DNA of 64,000 bases from an uncultured Ferrovum sp. (GTDB lineage: Bacteria; Pseudomonadota; Gammaproteobacteria; Burkholderiales; Ferrovaceae). The stretch covers positions 1 to 64,000 of the forward strand of contig CAITLJ010000073.1 of NCBI GenBank assembly GCA_903893215.1. The letters run 5' to 3'. Position numbers and translations under genes: made by a program. This document shows, in pieces, positions 18,363-28,345 of the stretch. Numbering within the stretch: the stretch's first letter is position 1; each line of letters starts with the position of its first letter. Below the pieces are notes generated by a model. That model was not told the origin of the DNA. It searched no databases and worked only from the letters and a program-made list of their open reading frames with translations.

Positions 18363-18875
18363 TCAGGCCGCGGCCCAGGTCCGGTTGCCGGCGAGCACCC
18401 GGCTGACCTGCTCTGCATCCGCCACATCGCCGTGCACGGTCAGCACAAACTTGTCCATCCGCACGGCTGTCTCGTAGCGGATCGCCTGATCCTTGGGCAC
18501 ACCGATCTGGCTTAGCGCGGCACCCAGTGCCGACAGGCCACCGACCACCACCGCTCCCTCCAGCGCACTCACCAGCAGCGCCACCAGAGGCCCCGCCAAC
18601 GCGACGACGCCAATGCCCGGCAGGAAGAACATGGCCGGTGTGAACAGCAGGCCCCATAAGCCGCCCCAGAGTGCGCCGGTGCCGCCCCAGGCTTTGACCC
18701 GGTCGCCAGCGGTGTAGAAGCCGACCGGATGCTCCTCGCTGTGATAACCCTTGCCTACCAGCGACAGTTTGCGCAAATCGACGCCAGCATGACCCAGCGC
18801 GCGGATGGCATCTTCGGCTTCGCCGTGGGTGTTGAACACATAGAAGGGCAGCACCTCGCTGCTGCTGTCCATCAT
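18363..18875 (-). CDS. Glycine-zipper membrane protein (general stress-type)
   Basis: A 170-aa protein with an N-terminal alpha/beta segment resembling the general-stress YflT/heat-induced domain (FYVFNTHGEAEDAIRALGHAGVDLRKLSLVGKGYH), a central hydrophobic Gly/Ala-rich hairpin (about residues 55-110), and a C-terminal strand (YETAVRMDKFVLTVHGDVADAEQVSRVL). It is a paralogue of the proteins at 47626-48207 and 49842-50369, sharing the zipper and the YET.VR...V.VH/Q block. The ATG at 18875 overlaps the TGA of the upstream BON gene (ATGA), supporting this start and a two-gene operon. Confidence 0.75.
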   Translation of the reverse strand: MMDSSSEVLPFYVFNTHGEAEDAIRALGHAGVDLRKLSLVGKGYHSEEHPVGFYTAGDRVKAWGGTGALWGGLWGLLFTPAMFFLPGIGVVALAGPLVALLVSALEGAVVVGGLSALGAALSQIGVPKDQAIRYETAVRMDKFVLTVHGDVADAEQVSRVLAGNRTWAAA

Positions 18876-19525
18876 GCCACCACAGTCAGGTGATCGACCA
18901 CGCTGTGCACGCCCGGCGTGCCCCACGCCGAATTGCGCGCGAGTTCACGTTCGGCCCAGCTGTGCACGGTCCCGCTCAGGGTGATGTCGCCACCGCTGAC
19001 GGCCACGGAAATGTTCTGTGCGTCCTTCACTGCCTGACGCTTCAGGGTGGCTTCAATGTCGGCCTTCACGGTGCTCAGCGACACGCCGCTGTTCAATGCT
19101 ATGTGATCAACGATACCGGTCACACCAAGCAGGTAGCGCACCGCATTGACCGCAGCGCGCCGCTGGTATTCCCAGTCCACCTTGCCGGTGAGCGTGACCG
19201 AACCGTTTTGCACCGATACCTTGATGGCATCCTGACCCAGATACGTGGTCCACTGCAGTACGTTGGTGACCGAGCGGGCAATGTCGCTGTCATTGCGTTT
19301 GCTGGTGCCCGGCAGGTTGACGTCGATTTCGATGGCCAGTGCCTTGACCCCGGCCACGCGCTGGGCCGCGCGCTCGGCGTCCCATTTGGCGGTAAAGCTG
19401 TCCACGTGCCCAGCCAGGGTGACCACCCCGGCCGTGACTTCCACGCCAATCTGGGCCGCGTTCACACTCGGTTCCCACTTCAGTTCGGCGATCACATCCT
19501 GTTGCAGTTGGCTATCGGTTTTCAT
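18872..19525 (-). CDS. BON-domain protein with three BON repeats (OsmY-like)
   Basis: A 217-aa protein consisting of three BON domains (about residues 5-70, 78-145 and 150-215), each with the V.V..G.VTL.G.V pattern: IGVEVTAGVVTLAGHV, IKVSVQNGSVTLTGKV and ISVAVSGGDITLSGTV. BON domains bind phospholipid surfaces, and OsmY-type proteins are stress-induced. No signal peptide is visible from the ATG at 19525, which follows GGAAG; an in-frame start at 19600 does not add one. It is coupled to the downstream glycine-zipper gene by a 4-bp overlap. Confidence 0.87.
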   Translation of the reverse strand: MKTDSQLQQDVIAELKWEPSVNAAQIGVEVTAGVVTLAGHVDSFTAKWDAERAAQRVAGVKALAIEIDVNLPGTSKRNDSDIARSVTNVLQWTTYLGQDAIKVSVQNGSVTLTGKVDWEYQRRAAVNAVRYLLGVTGIVDHIALNSGVSLSTVKADIEATLKRQAVKDAQNISVAVSGGDITLSGTVHSWAERELARNSAWGTPGVHSVVDHLTVVA

Positions 19526-19628
19526 GGTTAAGCTTCCATCTTGTTGAGGAAGCTCCAGCATGGGCGGCCACGGTACTGACTTCCGTTCGTCCTCGGACAT
19601 AGGCCGACACCCAGGCGCTGTGGCCGTA

Positions 19629-19669: not shown

Positions 19670-20119
19670 TTACCAGCAGGGCGGCGTAAGCGACGTGTAG
19701 TTCAGATTGCTCTGGATGCCCTGGTCGGTGATCTGATAGTCACCGCAGGCGTCGCTGGTCTGCACGCTGCCGCGCAGCGCCTGCGCGGTGAAATTGGCGT
19801 TGCTGTTGCTGGTGCTCACGGTGAGGGTGTACGTGGTCGGGCCACCGGTACTGATGGCTACCGGAAAACTGCCGCTGTAACCCAGATTGCTGGCGGTCGC
19901 CGTGTACGCATTATTGGTGGCGTAATACCGCTCCTCGCGCGCCGCCAGGTCGAGCAGGGCGTTCTTGGCATCGACGCGGCGGCTCTTTGCCACCGAGACG
20001 TTGTATTGCGGCAGCGCGATCATGGCCAACACGCCCACCATTGCCACCGCGACCATCAGTTCGATCAGCGTGAAGCCGATCGCCCGGCGTGCCGGCTTCA
20101 GGTGCACGACGCAGCTCAT
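19670..20119 (-). CDS. pilE: Type IV pilus minor pilin PilE
   Basis: A 149-aa prepilin with a type III signal: a short basic leader, then the cleavage/methylation motif GFTLIELMVAVAMVGVLAMIA with the conserved Glu at mature position 5. The sequence after the helix (LPQYNVSVAKSRRVDAKNALLDLAAREERYYATNNAYTATASNLGY) is the PilE family pattern, and a C-terminal Cys pair (DACGDY ... TPPCW) is typical. It is the last gene of the minor pilin operon, overlapping the pilY1 stop by 4 bp. It should be part of the complex that primes pilus assembly. Confidence 0.92.
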   Translation of the reverse strand: MSCVVHLKPARRAIGFTLIELMVAVAMVGVLAMIALPQYNVSVAKSRRVDAKNALLDLAAREERYYATNNAYTATASNLGYSGSFPVAISTGGPTTYTLTVSTSNSNANFTAQALRGSVQTSDACGDYQITDQGIQSNLNYTSLTPPCW

Positions 20120-23100
20120 CGCAGCTGCGTCCAGTTCAGGCGTTTGGTCTTGCTGTTCTTCGTTGGATTGATCTGGGTGGCGCTTCCCACGCCGGATGCG
20201 GTCTGGTTGATCAGATAAGGATTATTGAGCGCACTCACCACCGACGGCGTACCGGTGGCATTCAGCGCGACACCGGTCACGCTCACCTTCACGTTGGCAT
20301 TGGTCGGACTGGTCACCTGCACGAACTGGTTGTTGCTGTTCGGAAAGAAAGAGTTGGAAAAGCTGCTGCCATCGGTCGGCACGAAGGCCATCGTCCAGCC
20401 AGAGGGCAGGGTGGAACTGCAGGCAAAGATCGAGTCATTTGGCGGAATGGTGGTGTTGGCCACCAGCGCCCCCTGGTAGATGACCGGGTTGTAAATCACC
20501 TGCTCGCCGGTCACCGGCAAATTGGCCAGCCAACCAAACTGGTTGTAGGTGCTGCAGCCAGTGACGTTGCTGGCACCTGTCCAGCACACCGGATTGCTGC
20601 TCACGGTGCGGGTGCCGACGATGGCGCCGGAAGAGGCGGCAATCTGGGTGATGGTCTGGGTGGCCAGGATTGGTGCACTGACCCCGCTGACAAAGGCCAG
20701 CGTGGCCTTGGGTGCGGTGGTGCCGGTCAGGGTGGCATACGCTACCGTGGGGTTGAGCGTATTCCAGGCGGTCATGTTCCAGTCCCAGATGCCATAAATG
20801 CTCTGCTGGCCGGCGGCATAACTGACGGCTGCGGTGGTGGTGGCCGGGAATTCCTGTCCGGTGCCGAATTCGACCATCACGCGCGAGGTGCTACTGCCGG
20901 GACTGACCGGGGTCGATGCCACGATCAGTCGGGTGGTGATCGGTTGATTGGTGGTGACCCCGCTGGCGGTGATCAGCGGCGTGGAGAACAGCGGGGCTGG
21001 ACTGGTGCCGCCAAAGCTCGAGACGCCCCAACTGGCCGGGCTGCTGCTGGTCACGTCAAAGCGCCAGATGTTGCCGAGCAGGTCGCCGGCATAGATGTAA
21101 TCCACGGTGTGATCGCCGTCCAGATCGACGGGCGTGGTGTAAGCGATGCCGTTGGCGCGCCCCTTGCCGGTGGGATCGGTGCCGGCATCGAGGTAGTAGG
21201 CGGTCTGTGCGCCGCTGACCGGGTCCACCGTGATGATGTAGATGCCGGCATGGCCGCCGCTGCTGTTGAAGCCGTTGCCGAACACCACCCCCCACATGCC
21301 GTTGTGGAAGCGCCGGATCATCGGCGTGCCGTAGGTGTTGCCCAGATAGGCACCGCAACCCGCTGCACTGCAGGGCATGTTGCTGCTGGTCCACTCGGCC
21401 AACACGACATTTTTGGCATTGCTTTCGGTCAGTTTGGAAGGGTCGGTGATATCGATTGCGAACACAGCATTGCCGCCGGCGCCCTGACCGCTGACCAGCC
21501 AGGTATGCCACGCCTTGTTGTAAAACACATCACCGGTGCCGGGTGTGGCATCCACCGAAAAGGCGTGGACATATTGCGGTGACGCATAGTCCACTGTGGC
21601 ATCAGTGCCACTGTGGATGGCCTGTACCACCGTACCCGGCATGTAGGCCATCACCTCTGCGCCATCGTTGGGTGTGGTGGTGGTGGTGAAGTTGCCGAAG
21701 GGATTGCCCGAGCTGGTCGCCCCGTCATAGGCGCCGGTGCGGAAGCCATGCAGCATGCCATCGTTCGAGCCGCTGTAGACCAGATTCGGCCGGGTCACCC
21801 AGGTGGTGGCAAAGCTGGGGTAAGTCTGGGCAGTGGTCGCGTTTTCTGGCGGCGTCGCAGACGGATAGAGCAGGTCGGTCCAGGTGGCACCATACGGGCT
21901 CATCGGCGGTCCCACCCAGGTCGGATTGGAGTGCTGGATGTCGCCCAGCACGCTGGTGCGCAGGCGGTAGGTGCCGCTGCCCGTGCTGGTCTGTTCGTTC
22001 GTGCGGTCGCCGCGCAGGAACGCCAGGCGATTGCTGGTCTGGGTGGCGTCGCCAGCATCCAGCGCGGCCTGCTGCGCAGAGGTCAGGCTGGCCCACTGCA
22101 GCGGGATGCCCTGGGTGCCGTTCCAGGTCAGGATGTTGCGTGCGCTGGGGCCCTGCGCCACGCCGCCGGTGGTACCTGTGGCGGCACAGGTGCCACCGGT
22201 GAGCACGCAGGACGCATCCCAGTTGAACGCGTTGCTGATCGAGACCAGTCCGGTGGTGGCATTGTAGGTGAGGTTTTGCGAGGTCAACTGGCCCCACCAG
22301 TTGTTCGGATGGAAGTACGACAGGTAAACCTGCGTGCCAGTGCGCACCTGCGCTGCCTGTTGCGTGTTCACGCCAGCCGAAGAGTCGGACTGATCGGCCG
22401 GGGTGGCCTGAAAGCAGGTGATCTCGTGGATGTTGCGCGAGCCGCCGGTCGAACCGGCAAAGCCGAAGCGCAGGTTGGCAGGCAGGGTGCCGTTGCTGAC
22501 GCTGATCGACTGCTTGGTCAGCACCGGCTGATAGACCCCGCCACTGATCTTGTAGGACAGGCTGAGCTTGCCGTCCGAGGTGATCTGCAGGTTGTAGGTG
22601 ATCGGTGTGCCCTGGCCTCGCTTGGTGGCGCTCTCGTTGGCGATCTTGGTCGAGAACACCGTGTTCGCCCCGCTGATCAGCGCGTAGTCGAGCACCGACA
22701 GGCCGGTGGAGCGGGGATTGGTGACCCCGCCCGAAAAGTCATAGATCGCACCGGTGCTGCAGGTTTTCTTGACGGCCGTGGCTTGATCGCTGCTGCTCAG
22801 CGTGGACGGATAGTATTGTGGGTAGCTGGCATTCAGCCAACTCCAGGCCACATTGCCGGCCCCGCGCAGGCCCACCCGGTTGGGTACGTAGCCATTGCCG
22901 GTGGCGGTGTTGTCGCTGGCATTAAGAAAGTTGCCGTATTCGTCGATGCCCAGGCCAACGTAACCGCCCACCAGACCTTGATAGGGTGTGTTGCTGTTGG
23001 AACAGGAATAGCCCAGACTGCCGCCCCACGAGCCGATCTGGCTTGGGGTGGCAAGCGCGCCATCCATCAGGAAGAACGAGATGCCGTCGGCGCCGTCCTT

Positions 23101-23499
23101 GCCGCTGCCACCCGAATCCCCCAGGTAGGTTACGGTGGTGAAGGTGGCACTCACGCCCTGGTCGGCGGGGAAGGTGAAGTTAGATACCACCGCACCGTTC
23201 TGGCTGTTGTTGTCGGTGAAGCGTAACGCACCCTGTCCGGCTGCATCGGGCAGGGTGCCGGTGGAACCACCCAATTTGGCATTGCTGTCGCCGGAATAAT
23301 AGGGCAGGCCAACGCATGCAGGGATCGATCCGGTATTGTTGCCGGCGGTCAGACAGGCACCGTTGATGGCGGACCAGTTGAGGGTGGAGGCGGCCTGCGT
23401 CAGGTCGTCCTGGATGTTGATCGCTTGTGCCTGCCCACCAAGGCAGGCGAGCACCAGTGCGGTGACACGTCGAAGCGGACGGGGGTGGCGCGGGTTCAT
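20116..23499 (-). CDS. pilY1: PilY1-type pilus tip protein with N-terminal lectin-like domain
   Basis: A 1127-aa exported protein. After a signal peptide (VTALVLACLGGQAQA), residues about 27-355 look like an L-type lectin/ConA-like sandwich: ADGISFFLMDG, GYVGLGIDEYGNFLN and FGFAGSTGGSRNIHEITCF. Residues about 500-1000 hold the PilY1/PilC beta-propeller with the calcium-site block DLDGDHTVDYIYAGDLLGN followed by IWRFD. PilY1 caps the pilus and mediates adhesion and retraction control. The common N-terminal von Willebrand A domain is not evident. The ATG at 23499 follows GGAGG; it begins 1 bp past the pilX stop and overlaps pilE downstream. Confidence 0.9.
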   Translation of the reverse strand: MNPRHPRPLRRVTALVLACLGGQAQAINIQDDLTQAASTLNWSAINGACLTAGNNTGSIPACVGLPYYSGDSNAKLGGSTGTLPDAAGQGALRFTDNNSQNGAVVSNFTFPADQGVSATFTTVTYLGDSGGSGKDGADGISFFLMDGALATPSQIGSWGGSLGYSCSNSNTPYQGLVGGYVGLGIDEYGNFLNASDNTATGNGYVPNRVGLRGAGNVAWSWLNASYPQYYPSTLSSSDQATAVKKTCSTGAIYDFSGGVTNPRSTGLSVLDYALISGANTVFSTKIANESATKRGQGTPITYNLQITSDGKLSLSYKISGGVYQPVLTKQSISVSNGTLPANLRFGFAGSTGGSRNIHEITCFQATPADQSDSSAGVNTQQAAQVRTGTQVYLSYFHPNNWWGQLTSQNLTYNATTGLVSISNAFNWDASCVLTGGTCAATGTTGGVAQGPSARNILTWNGTQGIPLQWASLTSAQQAALDAGDATQTSNRLAFLRGDRTNEQTSTGSGTYRLRTSVLGDIQHSNPTWVGPPMSPYGATWTDLLYPSATPPENATTAQTYPSFATTWVTRPNLVYSGSNDGMLHGFRTGAYDGATSSGNPFGNFTTTTTPNDGAEVMAYMPGTVVQAIHSGTDATVDYASPQYVHAFSVDATPGTGDVFYNKAWHTWLVSGQGAGGNAVFAIDITDPSKLTESNAKNVVLAEWTSSNMPCSAAGCGAYLGNTYGTPMIRRFHNGMWGVVFGNGFNSSGGHAGIYIITVDPVSGAQTAYYLDAGTDPTGKGRANGIAYTTPVDLDGDHTVDYIYAGDLLGNIWRFDVTSSSPASWGVSSFGGTSPAPLFSTPLITASGVTTNQPITTRLIVASTPVSPGSSTSRVMVEFGTGQEFPATTTAAVSYAAGQQSIYGIWDWNMTAWNTLNPTVAYATLTGTTAPKATLAFVSGVSAPILATQTITQIAASSGAIVGTRTVSSNPVCWTGASNVTGCSTYNQFGWLANLPVTGEQVIYNPVIYQGALVANTTIPPNDSIFACSSTLPSGWTMAFVPTDGSSFSNSFFPNSNNQFVQVTSPTNANVKVSVTGVALNATGTPSVVSALNNPYLINQTASGVGSATQINPTKNSKTKRLNWTQLR

Positions 23500-23500
23500 C

Positions 23501-24100
23501 TTATTGTCCTCCAAGATCACGGATCACGCTGCTCACGCTGTAGGTGCTTTGCACCACCGAGACGGCATTGGCATTGCCGCCGTAACCCACCGCGGTCACC
23601 TGGTACAGCTTGGCCTGGTTGGCCGCCGAGGCACCCAGATAAGCGATGTAGATCTGCGGTGCCGCAAAATAAGTGCCGCTGCCACCGCTGGCGGAGGTGA
23701 CCAGTGCATTTGCCCCGTTGACCGAGGGAGGCGCATAGGCGGCCCCCAGATTCGCCCAACTGCCGTTCACCATGGCGCTCTGGCTGACCGGATTGGCGCA
23801 TACCAGCGGTGCCTGCAGAAGTCCCGTGCAGTTGACGCCGGTGGTCGCGTTGTCGGCCTGGGCAAGCCACCATTCGCCGTATTGCAAGGCGGTTTGCGCG
23901 GTCTGGAAGGCGTGCTGTTTTTCGCCGGTATTGGCAGTCATGCGCGTGTCCAGGCCCACCGAACGCATCATCGACAGGCCAAGCAGGGTGATCAGCAGCA
24001 TCATCAGCAGGCTGATGATCAGCGCTGACCCCGCTTGGTCCGGGCGCCTGGTCAGTGCGTGTGCAACGCGCATCCACCGGCAAGGGATGGTCATGTTCAT
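23501..24100 (-). CDS. pilX: Type IV pilus minor pilin PilX
   Basis: A 199-aa protein with an N-terminal hydrophobic helix (GSALIISLLMMLLITLLGLSMMRSVGL) of the PilX type, in which the usual Gly-Phe-Thr prepilin site is replaced by the Gly-Ser-Ala start seen in PilX proteins. KQHAFQTAQTALQYGEWWL is the family block following the helix. The ATG at 24100 overlaps the pilW TGA by 4 bp; a much longer open frame upstream lies inside pilW and is not credible. It acts with PilV, PilW, PilE and FimT in the priming complex. Confidence 0.88.
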   Translation of the reverse strand: MNMTIPCRWMRVAHALTRRPDQAGSALIISLLMMLLITLLGLSMMRSVGLDTRMTANTGEKQHAFQTAQTALQYGEWWLAQADNATTGVNCTGLLQAPLVCANPVSQSAMVNGSWANLGAAYAPPSVNGANALVTSASGGSGTYFAAPQIYIAYLGASAANQAKLYQVTAVGYGGNANAVSVVQSTYSVSSVIRDLGGQ

Positions 24101-24804
24101 AACAGGTTGAGCACCGGAATCACCTGGGTCAGGGCAGGCAGGGCGGCGGGCTGGCCGGCCTGTCCGGCAAGCGGATTCAGAAAGGTGAGCGTGACGCGCA
24201 CCGAGTAGATGTTGGCCCAGTTGGCCGCGGTCATTGCCGAGGCCGCGATGTATTGGGTGCTGGCTCCGCTGGCACTGGTATCCACGCCATACAGCACCGT
24301 GAAGCTCTTCACGCCTCCGGCGAGCGGCGTGGTCACACCATTCACCGTGCAATCCAGAAAACCGCTGCTGTCCAGACTGAAGGTGTTCACCATCACCAGC
24401 GGGCTGGTGCCGGTATTGGTCTTGCCACTGCAATCCATCACCCCGTCGGTGGTGCCGGCCTCGTAGCGCACCACCAGGGTGTCACCACTGCTGGCGCTGG
24501 TGCCGACCAGACCCTGGCCGGCCACGCTGAAGCTGCCCTTGGCGGGCAGTTCCACCGCCAGGGTGGAGGTCTGCGGATTGGGAAAATAGCCGGCATTCTG
24601 CACGGCATCGGTCAGCCGGGTGAGCAGCAGGCGCTGGTCTTCCTGCAACTGTTCCAACTGCGACTGTGCTGAGTTGTTGATCCGGGTGGACATCAGCATG
24701 CTCAGCATGCCGGTGGAAAGTGCCATGGTGATGGCGAGTGCCACCATCAGTTCGACCAGGCTAAAGCCACGCGCAATCACAGATTCGGGCCGGCATGCGT
24801 TCAT
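24097..24804 (-). CDS. pilW: Type IV pilus minor pilin PilW
   Basis: A 235-aa prepilin with the cleavage motif RGFSLVELMVALAITMALSTGML and the downstream QSQLEQLQEDQRLLLTRLTDAVQNAGYF stretch that identifies PilW. A Cys pair (MDCSGK, LDCTVN) lies in the globular part. The ATG at 24804 overlaps the pilV TGA. Reading further upstream in this frame only passes through pilV. Confidence 0.9.
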   Translation of the reverse strand: MNACRPESVIARGFSLVELMVALAITMALSTGMLSMLMSTRINNSAQSQLEQLQEDQRLLLTRLTDAVQNAGYFPNPQTSTLAVELPAKGSFSVAGQGLVGTSASSGDTLVVRYEAGTTDGVMDCSGKTNTGTSPLVMVNTFSLDSSGFLDCTVNGVTTPLAGGVKSFTVLYGVDTSASGASTQYIAASAMTAANWANIYSVRVTLTFLNPLAGQAGQPAALPALTQVIPVLNLL

Positions 24805-25337
24805 GGCATCACCAGCAGCTGGTATTTCTGCGCGGTGGCAGCACTGCTGCCGCTGGTCGTGGCATTGGCTGAAATGGTTTTTTCGTTCCAGTCCACCTCG
24901 ATGGTGCAGGTGACCGGGTTCACGCTGGTGGCTGCTGCGCAGGATACATTGGCGCCACTGCCCGGAAGCAGCGTCTGCAGCCCGGTCAGCCAGTTCTGCA
25001 GGTCGTAGCCGGCCATCTGGACCGGAGTGCAGGCGGCACTGGCGCAATTGGCCGTCTGGCCGGCCAGCGTGCTGTTGAGCGTAGTGGTGTTGCCGCTGCC
25101 CAGGGTGGCCACGGCGGTGGCCGGGGTGGCCGCCCAGTAAGGATCATTGGCGCGCATAGCTGCGGCCAGCGAGGCTGCTTGCAATGCGATCATCGAACGT
25201 TGCGCGGAATTGTGTGTGGCACCGATGATCAGTGCCTGCAGTTTGGCGGTGCCGAACAGCGCCACCGAGATCACGAGCAGCGAGATCAGCACCTCGATGA
25301 TGCCGAACCCCCGCTGAGCCTTGGCAACGACCATCAT
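24801..25337 (-). CDS. pilV: Type IV pilus minor pilin PilV
   Basis: A 178-aa prepilin with the motif QRGFGIIEVLISLLVISVALFGTAKLQ, characteristic of PilV, then SAQRSMIALQAASLAAAMRANDP. A conserved Cys-containing stretch (NCASAACTPVQMAGYDLQNW) follows. Starts at 25337 or the adjacent ATG at 25334, immediately after the fimT stop (2-bp gap). Confidence 0.9.
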   Translation of the reverse strand: MMVVAKAQRGFGIIEVLISLLVISVALFGTAKLQALIIGATHNSAQRSMIALQAASLAAAMRANDPYWAATPATAVATLGSGNTTTLNSTLAGQTANCASAACTPVQMAGYDLQNWLTGLQTLLPGSGANVSCAAATSVNPVTCTIEVDWNEKTISANATTSGSSAATAQKYQLLVMP

Positions 25338-25339
25338 CG

Positions 25340-25891
25340 TCACGTGCAGTTGCCTGTCCCGACAGATTGCACGACCGAGCGTCCGGCTGGCGTGATCGCC
25401 ACGCAACGGGTCAATTGTGTACTGCTGGTGGGCTCATGCAGGGTGAGGGTGACCGGATTGGCCGGCAAGGCAGAAATCGAACCCTGCCGGTTGAAGGTGA
25501 CGCTGCCCACACTGTTGTCAGCCAGAAAGGTGGCGGTACCTGGTGACTGGGCCTGCCAGCGCAGCGCGATGTCGCCGGCATCGAACGTGCCATTGCCATT
25601 GGCGTCATAAAACACCAGCCATCCAACTTGCCAGGCCGTGGTGTTGGCGGTGCAGCTTTGCCCATCATTGCTGGGGCAGACGGTCACGTTCTGCCCGCGT
25701 TTGATGGCTTCGCTGCGCGCAAACTGCAGGTCGCGCGCAAGGTTGTTGGCCTCGCCCAGCATGCGATACCCCTGCGCGGTGCGGCTGAAGGTGGGAACGG
25801 CACTGGTCAGGATGATGGTGGCCACACCCATCACCACCAGCAATTCCACCAGGGTGAAACCGTGAACGAACGGTATGGAAGGAGGGCGCAT
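25340..25891 (-). CDS. fimT: FimT/GspH family pseudopilin
   Basis: A 183-aa prepilin with the cleavage motif HGFTLVELLVVMGVATIILTSAVP and the GspH/FimT block NNLARDLQFARSEAIKRGQNVTVCPS. The C-terminal region (FNRQGSI ... CVAITPAGR) is also family-like. FimT proteins are minor pilins, in some species linked to DNA uptake. The ATG at 25891 follows GGAGAAGACC and is preferred over 25930. It is the promoter-proximal gene of the operon. Confidence 0.9.
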   Translation of the reverse strand: MRPPSIPFVHGFTLVELLVVMGVATIILTSAVPTFSRTAQGYRMLGEANNLARDLQFARSEAIKRGQNVTVCPSNDGQSCTANTTAWQVGWLVFYDANGNGTFDAGDIALRWQAQSPGTATFLADNSVGSVTFNRQGSISALPANPVTLTLHEPTSSTQLTRCVAITPAGRSVVQSVGTGNCT

Positions 25892-26197
25892 GGTCTTCTC
25901 CGCGAACTTTGACAGGGCGTGCTCAACCATCTCGTAAACTTGGATTTATTAAAAACTACTGAATTATATTCATGCATTTAGCGCCGCCAGATCAAGTAAT
26001 TTCCCGATTTTATTTGGGCCCTGCGAGCAGCGTTGGCGTACTTCGCGCGTTGCGCCCTGGGCGCCTTGGCGGCCTGCGCATTGCCCCGGCTGCGCGGCCT
26101 GTGACGCGTTGCCTTGTGTTTGTACTGTGCGCAATCGAACAGAGCGGTCTGGCCGGGTTGGCCATGCTGCGGCTTGACCCTGTGCCGGAATGCCCCG
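25892..26197. promoter_or_regulatory. Divergent promoter region between fimT and the GGDEF-EAL gene
   Basis: This 306-bp gap has an AT-rich patch at about 25930-25990, unlike the surrounding DNA. On the minus strand it contains a perfect TATAAT at 25968-25963, about 72 bp from the fimT start, a likely -10 box for the minor pilin operon; no convincing -35 hexamer at the usual spacing was seen. The part nearest the GGDEF-EAL gene is GC-rich and shows no clear promoter or conserved small ORF. Confidence 0.5.
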
Positions 26198-28345
26198 ATG
26201 CCTGTCCGTCCGCACGTCCTGCTGATCAGTCCCCGCACGGAACTGTCAGCGCTGGCCCGTATGTCATTGCTGGAAGGCGGCTGGGAAAGCTTCGAGGTGG
26301 AAGGTGCCGGTTCCCTGCATGCCGGCCTGCAGCGCCTCACCACTGCGGGTGTCGACGCCATCCTGCTCGACCTGGTGTTACCCGATAGCGCCGGCCTGCC
26401 CACCCTGCAGCGGGTATTTCTGGCGGCACCGCACATCCCGATCCTGGTACTTGGTGACGACGACAGCCGGGCCCTGTTCCGCACGCTCCTGCAGGCCGGC
26501 GCGCAGGATTGCCTGGTGCGCACACGGATCAACAGCGACAGTCTGGCGCGCGCGCTGAACGGGGCGATCGGCCGCAAGATCGCCGAGGACGCCCTGTTTC
26601 TGGAGCGCGAACGTGCCCAGGTCACCCTCAACTCGATCGGTGATGCCGTGCTCAGCACGGATGTAAAGGGGCGGATCACTTATCTCAACGCCGTGGCCGA
26701 ACGGTTGACGGGCTGGAACCTGGCTGACGCGCGCGGTCGTGACCTGCGTCAGGTGTTCAACGTGATCAGTGCGGTGACCCGCGCCGTGGTCACCGATCCG
26801 ATCCTTGGGGCCATTGCGCATGACCATGTGATTGCCCTCTCGGCCGACAGTGTGCTGATCCAGCGCAGCGGGGCCGAGGTACCGATCGAGGACTCGGTGG
26901 CGCCAATCCATGGGCGCGGTGGCGACGTGAGCGGGGCGGTGATCGTCTTCCACGACGTGAGCGAGTCACGCAGCATCAAACAGCGCATGGCGTATCTGGC
27001 CCAGCACGACTTCCTCACCGACCTGCCCAACCGCGTGCTGCTGAACGAGCGCCTGCAACATGCGCTTGATTTGGGGAAACGTCACCAACGCCGGTTGGCA
27101 GTGATGTTTCTTGATCTGGATCATCTCAAGCACATCAATGATTCGCTGGGGCACTCGGTAGGAGACCAGTTGCTGACCGAAGTGGCGCGCCGCCTGCTTG
27201 CCTGCGTGCGGGGTTCCGACACCGTCAGCCGGCAGGGCGGCGACGAGTTCGTGGTGCTGCTCAGCGAGATCGAACAACCGTCGGATGTGGTGGCTGTGGC
27301 AGAAAAAATACGCACCGCGCTGGCTGGTGTGTATGACGTGGCCGATCATGCCTTGTACCTGACGGCCAGCATCGGCGTCAGCATCTATCCCGAAGATGGC
27401 GACACCGCCGAACTCCTCACCCGCAACGCGGATACCGCGATGTATCAGGCCAAGGCCGATGGACGCGACACCCACCGATTTTTCAGCGTGGAAATGAACC
27501 TGCGTGCGACGGAGCGTCAATCGGTGGAAGAGGGGTTGCGCCAGGCGTTGGCGCGACAGGAGTTCTTTCTGCAGTTTCAGCCCAAGGTGGATCTGGGTAG
27601 CGGTTGTATCACCGGGGCCGAAGCGTTGATCCGCTGGCGCCATCCGGAACGTGGGGTGTTGCTGCCAAGCCAGTTCATTCCGATCGCCGAGGATTGCGGA
27701 CTGATCGTACAGATTGGTGCGTGGGTGCTGGAAACGGCCTGTCGGCAGGCGCGCGACTGGATGCAGGCGGCGTCATCCTTCACGCAGATTTCGATCAACA
27801 TTTCGGCGCATGAGTTTGTCAGCAAGGGTTTCTATGAACGCGTGTGCCAGGCGCTGGGCGACAACCAGCTGCCCGCAGGGTGCGTGGAGCTTGAGCTGAC
27901 CGAAACTGCACTGATGCGCGATGCCGATGGCACGGTACGTATGCTCGGTGCACTGCATGCCCTGGGTGTCCGGCTGGCCGTGGATGATTTCGGCACCGGT
28001 TATTCCAGCCTGAGTTACCTGAAGCGCTTTCCGATCACCACGCTCAAGATTGACCAGTCCTTTGTGCGTGATGTGACCATCGATGAGGATGACGCCAATA
28101 TCGTGACCGCCATGGTGGCGATCGGCCACAGCCTGCGCCAGCAGGTGGTGGCCGAGGGGATCGAACAGCTGGCGCAACTGGCGTTCCTGCAATCCCTGCA
28201 ATGTCAGGAGGGGCAGGGTTTCCTGTTCAGCCAGCCGCTGGACGCAGACAGGTTCGGCAGCCTGCTTGCCGAAGGCGGACTCTGTGCCGTCACCGGCATC
28301 ACGTGGCCAGCTTCATTGGCAACAGTCGGTCGTATTCCCGCTTGA
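26198..28345 (+). CDS. REC-PAS-GGDEF-EAL c-di-GMP turnover protein
   Basis: A 715-aa signalling protein. Residues 1-120 form a receiver-like domain (VDAILLDLVLPDSAG with the phospho-acceptor Asp); 140-260 a PAS domain (TLNSIGDAVLSTDVKGRITYLN); 280-445 a GGDEF domain with intact GGDEF and an upstream RxxD (RGSD) inhibitory site; 455-700 an EAL domain with EALIRW, NISAHEF, ELTETALM, DDFGTGYSSLSYL, KIDQSF and EGIEQL all present. Both synthase and phosphodiesterase activities are therefore possible. The location beside the pilin operon suggests a role in pilus-based motility or adhesion, but this is inference. The 3' end overlaps the convergent crp gene by 47 bp. Confidence 0.92.
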   Translation: MPVRPHVLLISPRTELSALARMSLLEGGWESFEVEGAGSLHAGLQRLTTAGVDAILLDLVLPDSAGLPTLQRVFLAAPHIPILVLGDDDSRALFRTLLQAGAQDCLVRTRINSDSLARALNGAIGRKIAEDALFLERERAQVTLNSIGDAVLSTDVKGRITYLNAVAERLTGWNLADARGRDLRQVFNVISAVTRAVVTDPILGAIAHDHVIALSADSVLIQRSGAEVPIEDSVAPIHGRGGDVSGAVIVFHDVSESRSIKQRMAYLAQHDFLTDLPNRVLLNERLQHALDLGKRHQRRLAVMFLDLDHLKHINDSLGHSVGDQLLTEVARRLLACVRGSDTVSRQGGDEFVVLLSEIEQPSDVVAVAEKIRTALAGVYDVADHALYLTASIGVSIYPEDGDTAELLTRNADTAMYQAKADGRDTHRFFSVEMNLRATERQSVEEGLRQALARQEFFLQFQPKVDLGSGCITGAEALIRWRHPERGVLLPSQFIPIAEDCGLIVQIGAWVLETACRQARDWMQAASSFTQISINISAHEFVSKGFYERVCQALGDNQLPAGCVELELTETALMRDADGTVRMLGALHALGVRLAVDDFGTGYSSLSYLKRFPITTLKIDQSFVRDVTIDEDDANIVTAMVAIGHSLRQQVVAEGIEQLAQLAFLQSLQCQEGQGFLFSQPLDADRFGSLLAEGGLCAVTGITWPASLATVGRIPA

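Follow-up and report, generated by a model that had tools for sequence, protein, structure and literature searches.

In Pseudomonas aeruginosa, PilY1 is encoded in a minor-pilin operon and combines a C-terminal β-propeller and calcium loop (PDB 3hx6) with an N-terminal, Cys-rich von Willebrand A (vWA) domain containing a metal ion-dependent adhesion site (MIDAS). The debate on PilY1 has mostly centred on this vWA domain, as an adhesin and force sensor. PilC/PilY1 proteins are modular and have variable N-termini, with 68 InterPro architectures counted (PMC8179133); when published PilY1 proteins were compared in 2026, vWFA and DUF4114 were the only N-terminal domains listed (PMC13190605). DUF4114 is the non-vWA head of Myxococcus xanthus PilY1.1 and PilY1.2, for which Ca2+-dependent polysaccharide binding has been proposed (PMC9109919, PMC13190605); PilY1.1 has been linked to exopolysaccharide, which its head is proposed to bind (PMC9109919). 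The present work concerns the PilY1 encoded by the fifth gene of a minor-pilin operon in a 64,000-nt stretch of DNA, hereafter the window, from an uncultured Ferrovum sp. (contig CAITLJ010000073.1, positions 1–64,000). This protein resembles P. aeruginosa PilY1 in its C-terminal propeller, calcium loop and operon, but its N-terminal part is predicted to be an L-type lectin; unlike the M. xanthus heads, it gave no DUF4114 match in Pfam. With a probability of roughly three in four, we take it to be a type IVa pilus tip adhesin in which a Ca2+-dependent L-type lectin head stands in place of the vWA domain, with an exopolysaccharide or a surface polysaccharide as its most likely glycan ligand.

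An earlier note, made from the sequence of the window, had placed a PilY1 gene at 20116–23499 and attributed L-type lectin features to residues about 27–355 of its product. Inspection of the open reading frame (ORF) confirmed its place and a length of 1127 amino acids (aa), and the motifs quoted in that note were present: ADG at residues 137–139, VGLGIDEYGN ending at N190, and GFAGSTGGSRNIHEI ending at about residue 360. The Pfam family PF18483 (Lectin_L-type_dom) matched residues 88–361 with an E-value of 5e-7 and 30.2 bits, under the curated cut-off of 78.3, which is a database threshold and not a biological feature. A profile built from 75 domains found legume lectins in the PDB, the best being peanut lectin (E 5.9e-6); of the 60 chains shown, almost all carried plant lectin names. 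The AlphaFold2 model of residues 27–372 was confident (predicted local distance difference test, pLDDT, 94.0; predicted template modelling score, pTM, 0.93), and Foldseek searches with it retrieved peanut lectin (E 1.2e-10), as well as ERGIC-53, Emp47p, VIP36, a Methanocaldococcus L-lectin and YwfG. Superposition in VIA-align gave Z 21.3 for the P. angolensis lectin (root mean square deviation, rmsd, 2.5 over 205 residues) and Z 20.5 for ERGIC-53 (rmsd 2.3 over 195 residues). The same lectin domain was contained in the full-length model (pLDDT 86, pTM 0.85). The predicted fold is that of an L-type lectin, neither a vWA nor an unrelated fold; the family, profile and model results bear out the lectin assignment and refine its extent, residues 27–366 being, on the model, an L-type (legume) lectin domain.

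Conservation of the putative binding site was counted over 75 homologous lectin domains. Residues A137, D138, G139, G159, G160, D186, E187, G189, N190, G352, N356, H358 and E359 did not vary in any of them, position 188 was always Tyr or Phe, and D196 was kept in 74. The loss of the Asp/Asn carbohydrate-site residues, a possibility raised in the earlier note, was therefore not seen. In the alignment with peanut lectin, D138 pairs with the Asp of its ADG motif, and the V-E-F-D Asp lies opposite D186. The position of the plant Mn2+-binding Glu is Gly184 in all 75 domains; the second metal site of plant legume lectins was not found. The closest bacterial counterparts of this site are found in YwfG of Lactococcus (7yl4) and SraP of Staphylococcus (4m00), whose L-lectin modules were both among the fold search matches. 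These are Ca-only L-lectins that occupy the distal end of an adhesin, with Ca2+ ligands arranged as D-x-Y-x-N...D, although both adhesins are cell-wall-anchored Gram-positive proteins with no link to pili. In YwfG, Ca2+ is bound by D152, Y154 O, N156 and D166, and mannose is contacted by D117, N156, Y154 (stacking), G136 and the loop 13–14 (PMC9815576); the Ca2+ ligands of SraP correspond to those of YwfG, and SraP has no Mn2+ site (PMC4047093). By residue comparison, the PilY1 lectin site residues coincide with those that bind Ca2+ and mannose in YwfG and with the Ca2+ ligands of SraP. Because of this match, and because Gly184 occupies the place of the Mn2+-binding Glu, the site reads as that of a Ca-only L-type lectin. 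The Asp-Gly-Asn triad (D138, G159/G160 and N190) is the predicted sugar site; from fold and site residues, we infer that the domain binds Ca2+ and sugar.

No vWA family was matched in the protein at E-values up to 10 in Pfam, and no MIDAS was found within the lectin domain. The single DxSxS string of the protein (residues 369–373) was rejected as a MIDAS since it lies at the domain end or linker and its Asp falls outside the family consensus PxxQSxSS. The earlier statement that an N-terminal vWA domain with a MIDAS is not evident thus agrees with the family search, the model and the motif search. The C-terminal propeller and calcium site, described in the same note as intact, were recovered as such: PF05567 scored 127 bits against a cut-off of 28.1, the C-terminal part of the full-length model superposed on P. 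aeruginosa PilY1 3hx6 over 449 residues (Z 26.9, rmsd 2.9), and the sequence contains the calcium loop DLDGDHTVD (Table 1).

These observations suggest a mechanism. The propeller, together with the minor pilins FimU, PilV, PilW, PilX and PilE, would prime pilus assembly and hold the lectin at the tip, as for other PilY1 proteins, and a short flexible linker would expose it to the outside. A single Ca2+ ion, coordinated by D186, the Y188 backbone, N190 and D196, would shape a sugar pocket walled by D138, G159/G160, N190, loop D (residues 350–354) and the aromatic ring of Y188. This pocket would bind a glycan of the organism's own or neighbouring cells, and retraction would pull on the sugar-anchored tip, leading to twitching or clumping. 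That the ligand is an exopolysaccharide is a guess by analogy with M. xanthus. A lectin on type IV pili has a precedent in Streptococcus sanguinis PilC, whose ConA-like module has proven glycan binding (PMC9934059); there, however, the lectin is on a pilin, the host is a monoderm and there is no PilY1 propeller. Further, modular pilins of the PilC type have a class III signal peptide and a pilin stem, while the window PilY1 begins with what reads as an ordinary signal peptide (residues 1–26, with AQA at its end); neither a class III signal peptide nor a pilin stem was found in it, and no pilin motif family was matched. The modularity of PilY1 is already published. For an L-type lectin PilY1, we found no description in the literature searched, which covered few subscription journals, and the lectin-headed class is apparently undescribed there.

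A scan of a genome collection with the lectin domain identified at least 520 relatives among the 600 stretches listed, the best 80 of the 520 being taken as loci. A PilY1 propeller followed the lectin in the same ORF in 73 of these 80 loci, and minor pilins were frequent around them (PilE in 75, FimU, PilX and PilW in 71 each, PilV in 66). Among the matches listed, the closest named relative was a Ferrovum metagenome-assembled genome (MAG; 71% identity), and the named hosts included Ralstonia, Cupriavidus, Variovorax, Polaromonas, Curvibacter, Caldimonas, Chromobacterium, Andreprevotia, Glaciimonas, Dyella, Rhodanobacter and Halothiobacillus. The fusion of lectin and PilY1 recurs across Beta- and Gammaproteobacteria, in conserved operons. 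Within the order the class is patchy and in the minority: of 300 evenly sampled genomes, 194 had PF05567 and 14 a lectin-type PilY1 by reading. In the window's family, the lectin type was seen in the window's genus only (three of 32 genomes), and in a phylum sample of 398 genomes full-length strong domain matches were present in just three, the window's own included. The viral contigs searched gave no relative, and the PLSDB plasmids no match to the lectin domain.

In a propeller tree of 105 rows, comprising these best loci and only about 20 vWA or other PilY1 rows, every lectin type fell in one clade (SH-like approximate likelihood ratio test, SH-aLRT, 100). The two non-lectin rows inside this clade were propellers split from the lectin ORF by a stop. 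Within this sample, the lectin joined the PilY1 carrier once; the alternative, that it was moved repeatedly between carriers, was rejected on the single clade. Lectin and propeller stand as two ORFs with a stop between them on two MAG contigs, near 2008–2010 in L072 and near 1375–1377 in L134. In six sampled genomes (G104, G109, G190, G223, G228 and G311), the lectin type was the sole PF05567 protein seen, so it is probably enough for pilus assembly there, with the proviso that G311 is only 82% complete and that a highly diverged second PilY1 could escape detection in the six.

The source genome (G000; 3.27 Mb, 99.5% complete, with ten T2SSE-family ATPase matches) has two PilY1 genes. The second, on contig C48 (L003, 846–4640, plus strand), encodes a MIDAS-type DDSGS (residues 79–83) and a TDG in its N-terminal half and has no recognisable propeller calcium loop, a mirror image of the window protein. 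Similarity between the two is confined to the carrier part, from residue 494 onward, with 30% identity. The C48 paralogue had no Pfam vWA match and no PDB match, its vWA reading being by motifs only. The absence of vWA-based mechanosensing put forward in the earlier note consequently stands for the window protein and not for the organism, which may retain a vWA-type function through the C48 PilY1. A similar division between vWA and calcium loop was reported for Variovorax paradoxus EPS, which has three PilY1 genes; two of them lack the vWA site, one of those having a possible Ca2+ loop, and the non-vWA proteins were not identified as lectins (PMC3283707). Other Variovorax carry the lectin type (L074, L077, L098 and L100).

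Other explanations of the N-terminal domain were considered. A diverged vWA domain missed by sequence methods is barely credible and, as far as prediction goes, already refuted: some ComC/PilY1 vWA domains do fall under Pfam thresholds (PMC10374093) and the MIDAS-bearing C48 paralogue likewise lacks a Pfam vWA match, but the window domain has no MIDAS, and its confident model matches L-lectins with Z about 21 over 205–217 residues, vWA being an α/β fold. The domain might instead be mainly structural, keeping the L-lectin fold with Ca2+ for stability, having lost sugar binding and leaving adhesion to the propeller or other surfaces. Legionella and P. aeruginosa are reported to adhere to host cells via the C-terminal half of PilY1 (PMC10374093). 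We consider this unlikely, given that the sugar triad and the aromatic residue at 188 are kept, besides the Ca2+ ligands, in 75 divergent domains, and that the YwfG equivalents of D138 and the glycines are sugar contacts, not Ca2+ ligands. As for the ligand, a protein-linked or host glycan (from a plant, protist or animal surface), making the protein a host-association adhesin and not a binder of bacterial exopolysaccharide, appears improbable. Many carriers, such as Ralstonia, Variovorax and Cupriavidus, are soil- or plant-associated, and host glycans are the ligands of SraP and S. sanguinis PilC; the window protein, however, has its relatives in Ferrovum and in environmental MAGs, and no host is named for the MAGs that make up many of the other carriers.

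Some points weigh against a lectin-headed tip adhesin itself. The PF18483 score under the curated cut-off was counted as one of them. The tip location of the window PilY1 and its priming of pilus assembly are assumed by homology with known PilY1 proteins, and its invariant sites are proof of constraint, not of sugar binding. The MIDAS-bearing C48 PilY1 may do the main adhesion. Finally, Ferrovum is acidophilic, and if the host shares this trait with its nearest named relative, low pH may weaken the hold of Asp on Ca2+.

The pilin operon has the order FimU/GspH-PilV-PilW-PilX-PilY1-PilE, and pilY1 starts with an ATG at 23499 and stops at 20116–20118 (Table 1). Directly downstream of the operon lies a gene for a protein with three BON-domain matches (18872–19600, minus strand), and an RR-PAS-GGDEF-EAL gene (26114–28342, plus strand) is divergent from it. 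The latter was rejected as a signalling partner; a similar gene was present near only two of the 80 related loci, so within the limited flanks the adjacency is not conserved.

Table 1. Coordinates of the pilin operon and of the parts of its PilY1 in the window
Feature	Positions	Strand	Basis
pilY1, lectin type, 1127 aa	20116..23499	-	ORF and start; PF05567 E 1.1e-36
L-type lectin domain, residues 27-366	22402..23421	-	PF18483; PDB profile search; AlphaFold2 model and fold searches
D138 of ADG motif (predicted sugar-site Asp, loop A)	23086..23088	-	75/75; aligns with peanut lectin ADG Asp
Predicted Ca2+/sugar loop D186, E187, Y188, N190, D196 (residues 186-196)	22912..22944	-	Conservation; YwfG and SraP Ca2+ ligands match
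Loop D and lectin domain end, STGGSRNIHEI (residues 350-360)	22420..22452	-	G352, N356, H358, E359 invariant
Lectin-carrier linker, low confidence, presumably flexible, residues 371-379	22363..22389	-	pLDDT <50, full-length model
PilY1 C-terminal β-propeller carrier, residues about 526-1114	20158..21924	-	3hx6 match; PF05567 at 556-909
Propeller calcium loop DLDGDHTVD, residues 792-800	21100..21126	-	Pattern match; alignment A4: 796 and 800 invariant, 792 and 794 nearly
GGAGG, likely pilY1 ribosome binding site, within pilX end	23508..23512	-	Sequence reading
pilX	23501..24118	-	PF14341 and PF13681
pilW ORF, true start probably internal	24097..25047	-	PF16074
pilV	24801..25406	-	TIGR02523 above cut-off
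fimU/gspH-type minor pilin	25340..25930	-	PF12019 E 5.9e-23
pilE-type minor pilin, start overlaps pilY1 stop	19670..20119	-	PF16732 and PF07963

Variants of the lectin domain and its carriers were also observed. The proteins at L109:4914-7808, L121:3259-6639, L126:660-3434 and L135:4905-7739 have the same lectin and a C-terminal half hardly recognised by PF05567 or the propeller profile; their mutual identity is 39–53%, three lie near minor pilin genes, and they possibly form a further tip-protein family. At L040, L043, L044 and L046, the lectin domain extends to 461–619 aa, compared with about 346, by a long insertion, in part Thr/Ser-rich and repeat-like, that follows the Ca2+ loop and precedes the last strands. 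A related L-type lectin domain was present in DUF6701 proteins, which we take to be MshQ-type pilus proteins, of genomes of the order (L048, L050, L051 and L052); the DUF6701 protein of the window's genome (G000:C6:11005-12447) had no match to the lectin profile.

The wider proposal, that the lectin-headed type IVa tip proteins of Beta- and Gammaproteobacteria are a class apart with a single origin, and that Ca2+-dependent recognition of sugars, not vWA, gates how they engage surfaces, seems to us evenly poised. Were it true, pilus priming, gripping and any surface sensing would proceed without vWA in genomes with the lectin type as sole PilY1, and L-lectins would serve two pilus systems, given the related module in DUF6701 proteins. 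As a conserved class, lectin-headed PilY1 would make vWA one among several PilY1 heads, and glycan-specific gripping is predicted for Ralstonia, Cupriavidus, Variovorax, Chromobacterium and Ferrovum-like bacteria. D138 and N190 are point positions that could uncouple adhesion from pilus assembly, and the natural vWA-less genomes offer a setting for asking whether surface sensing requires vWA.

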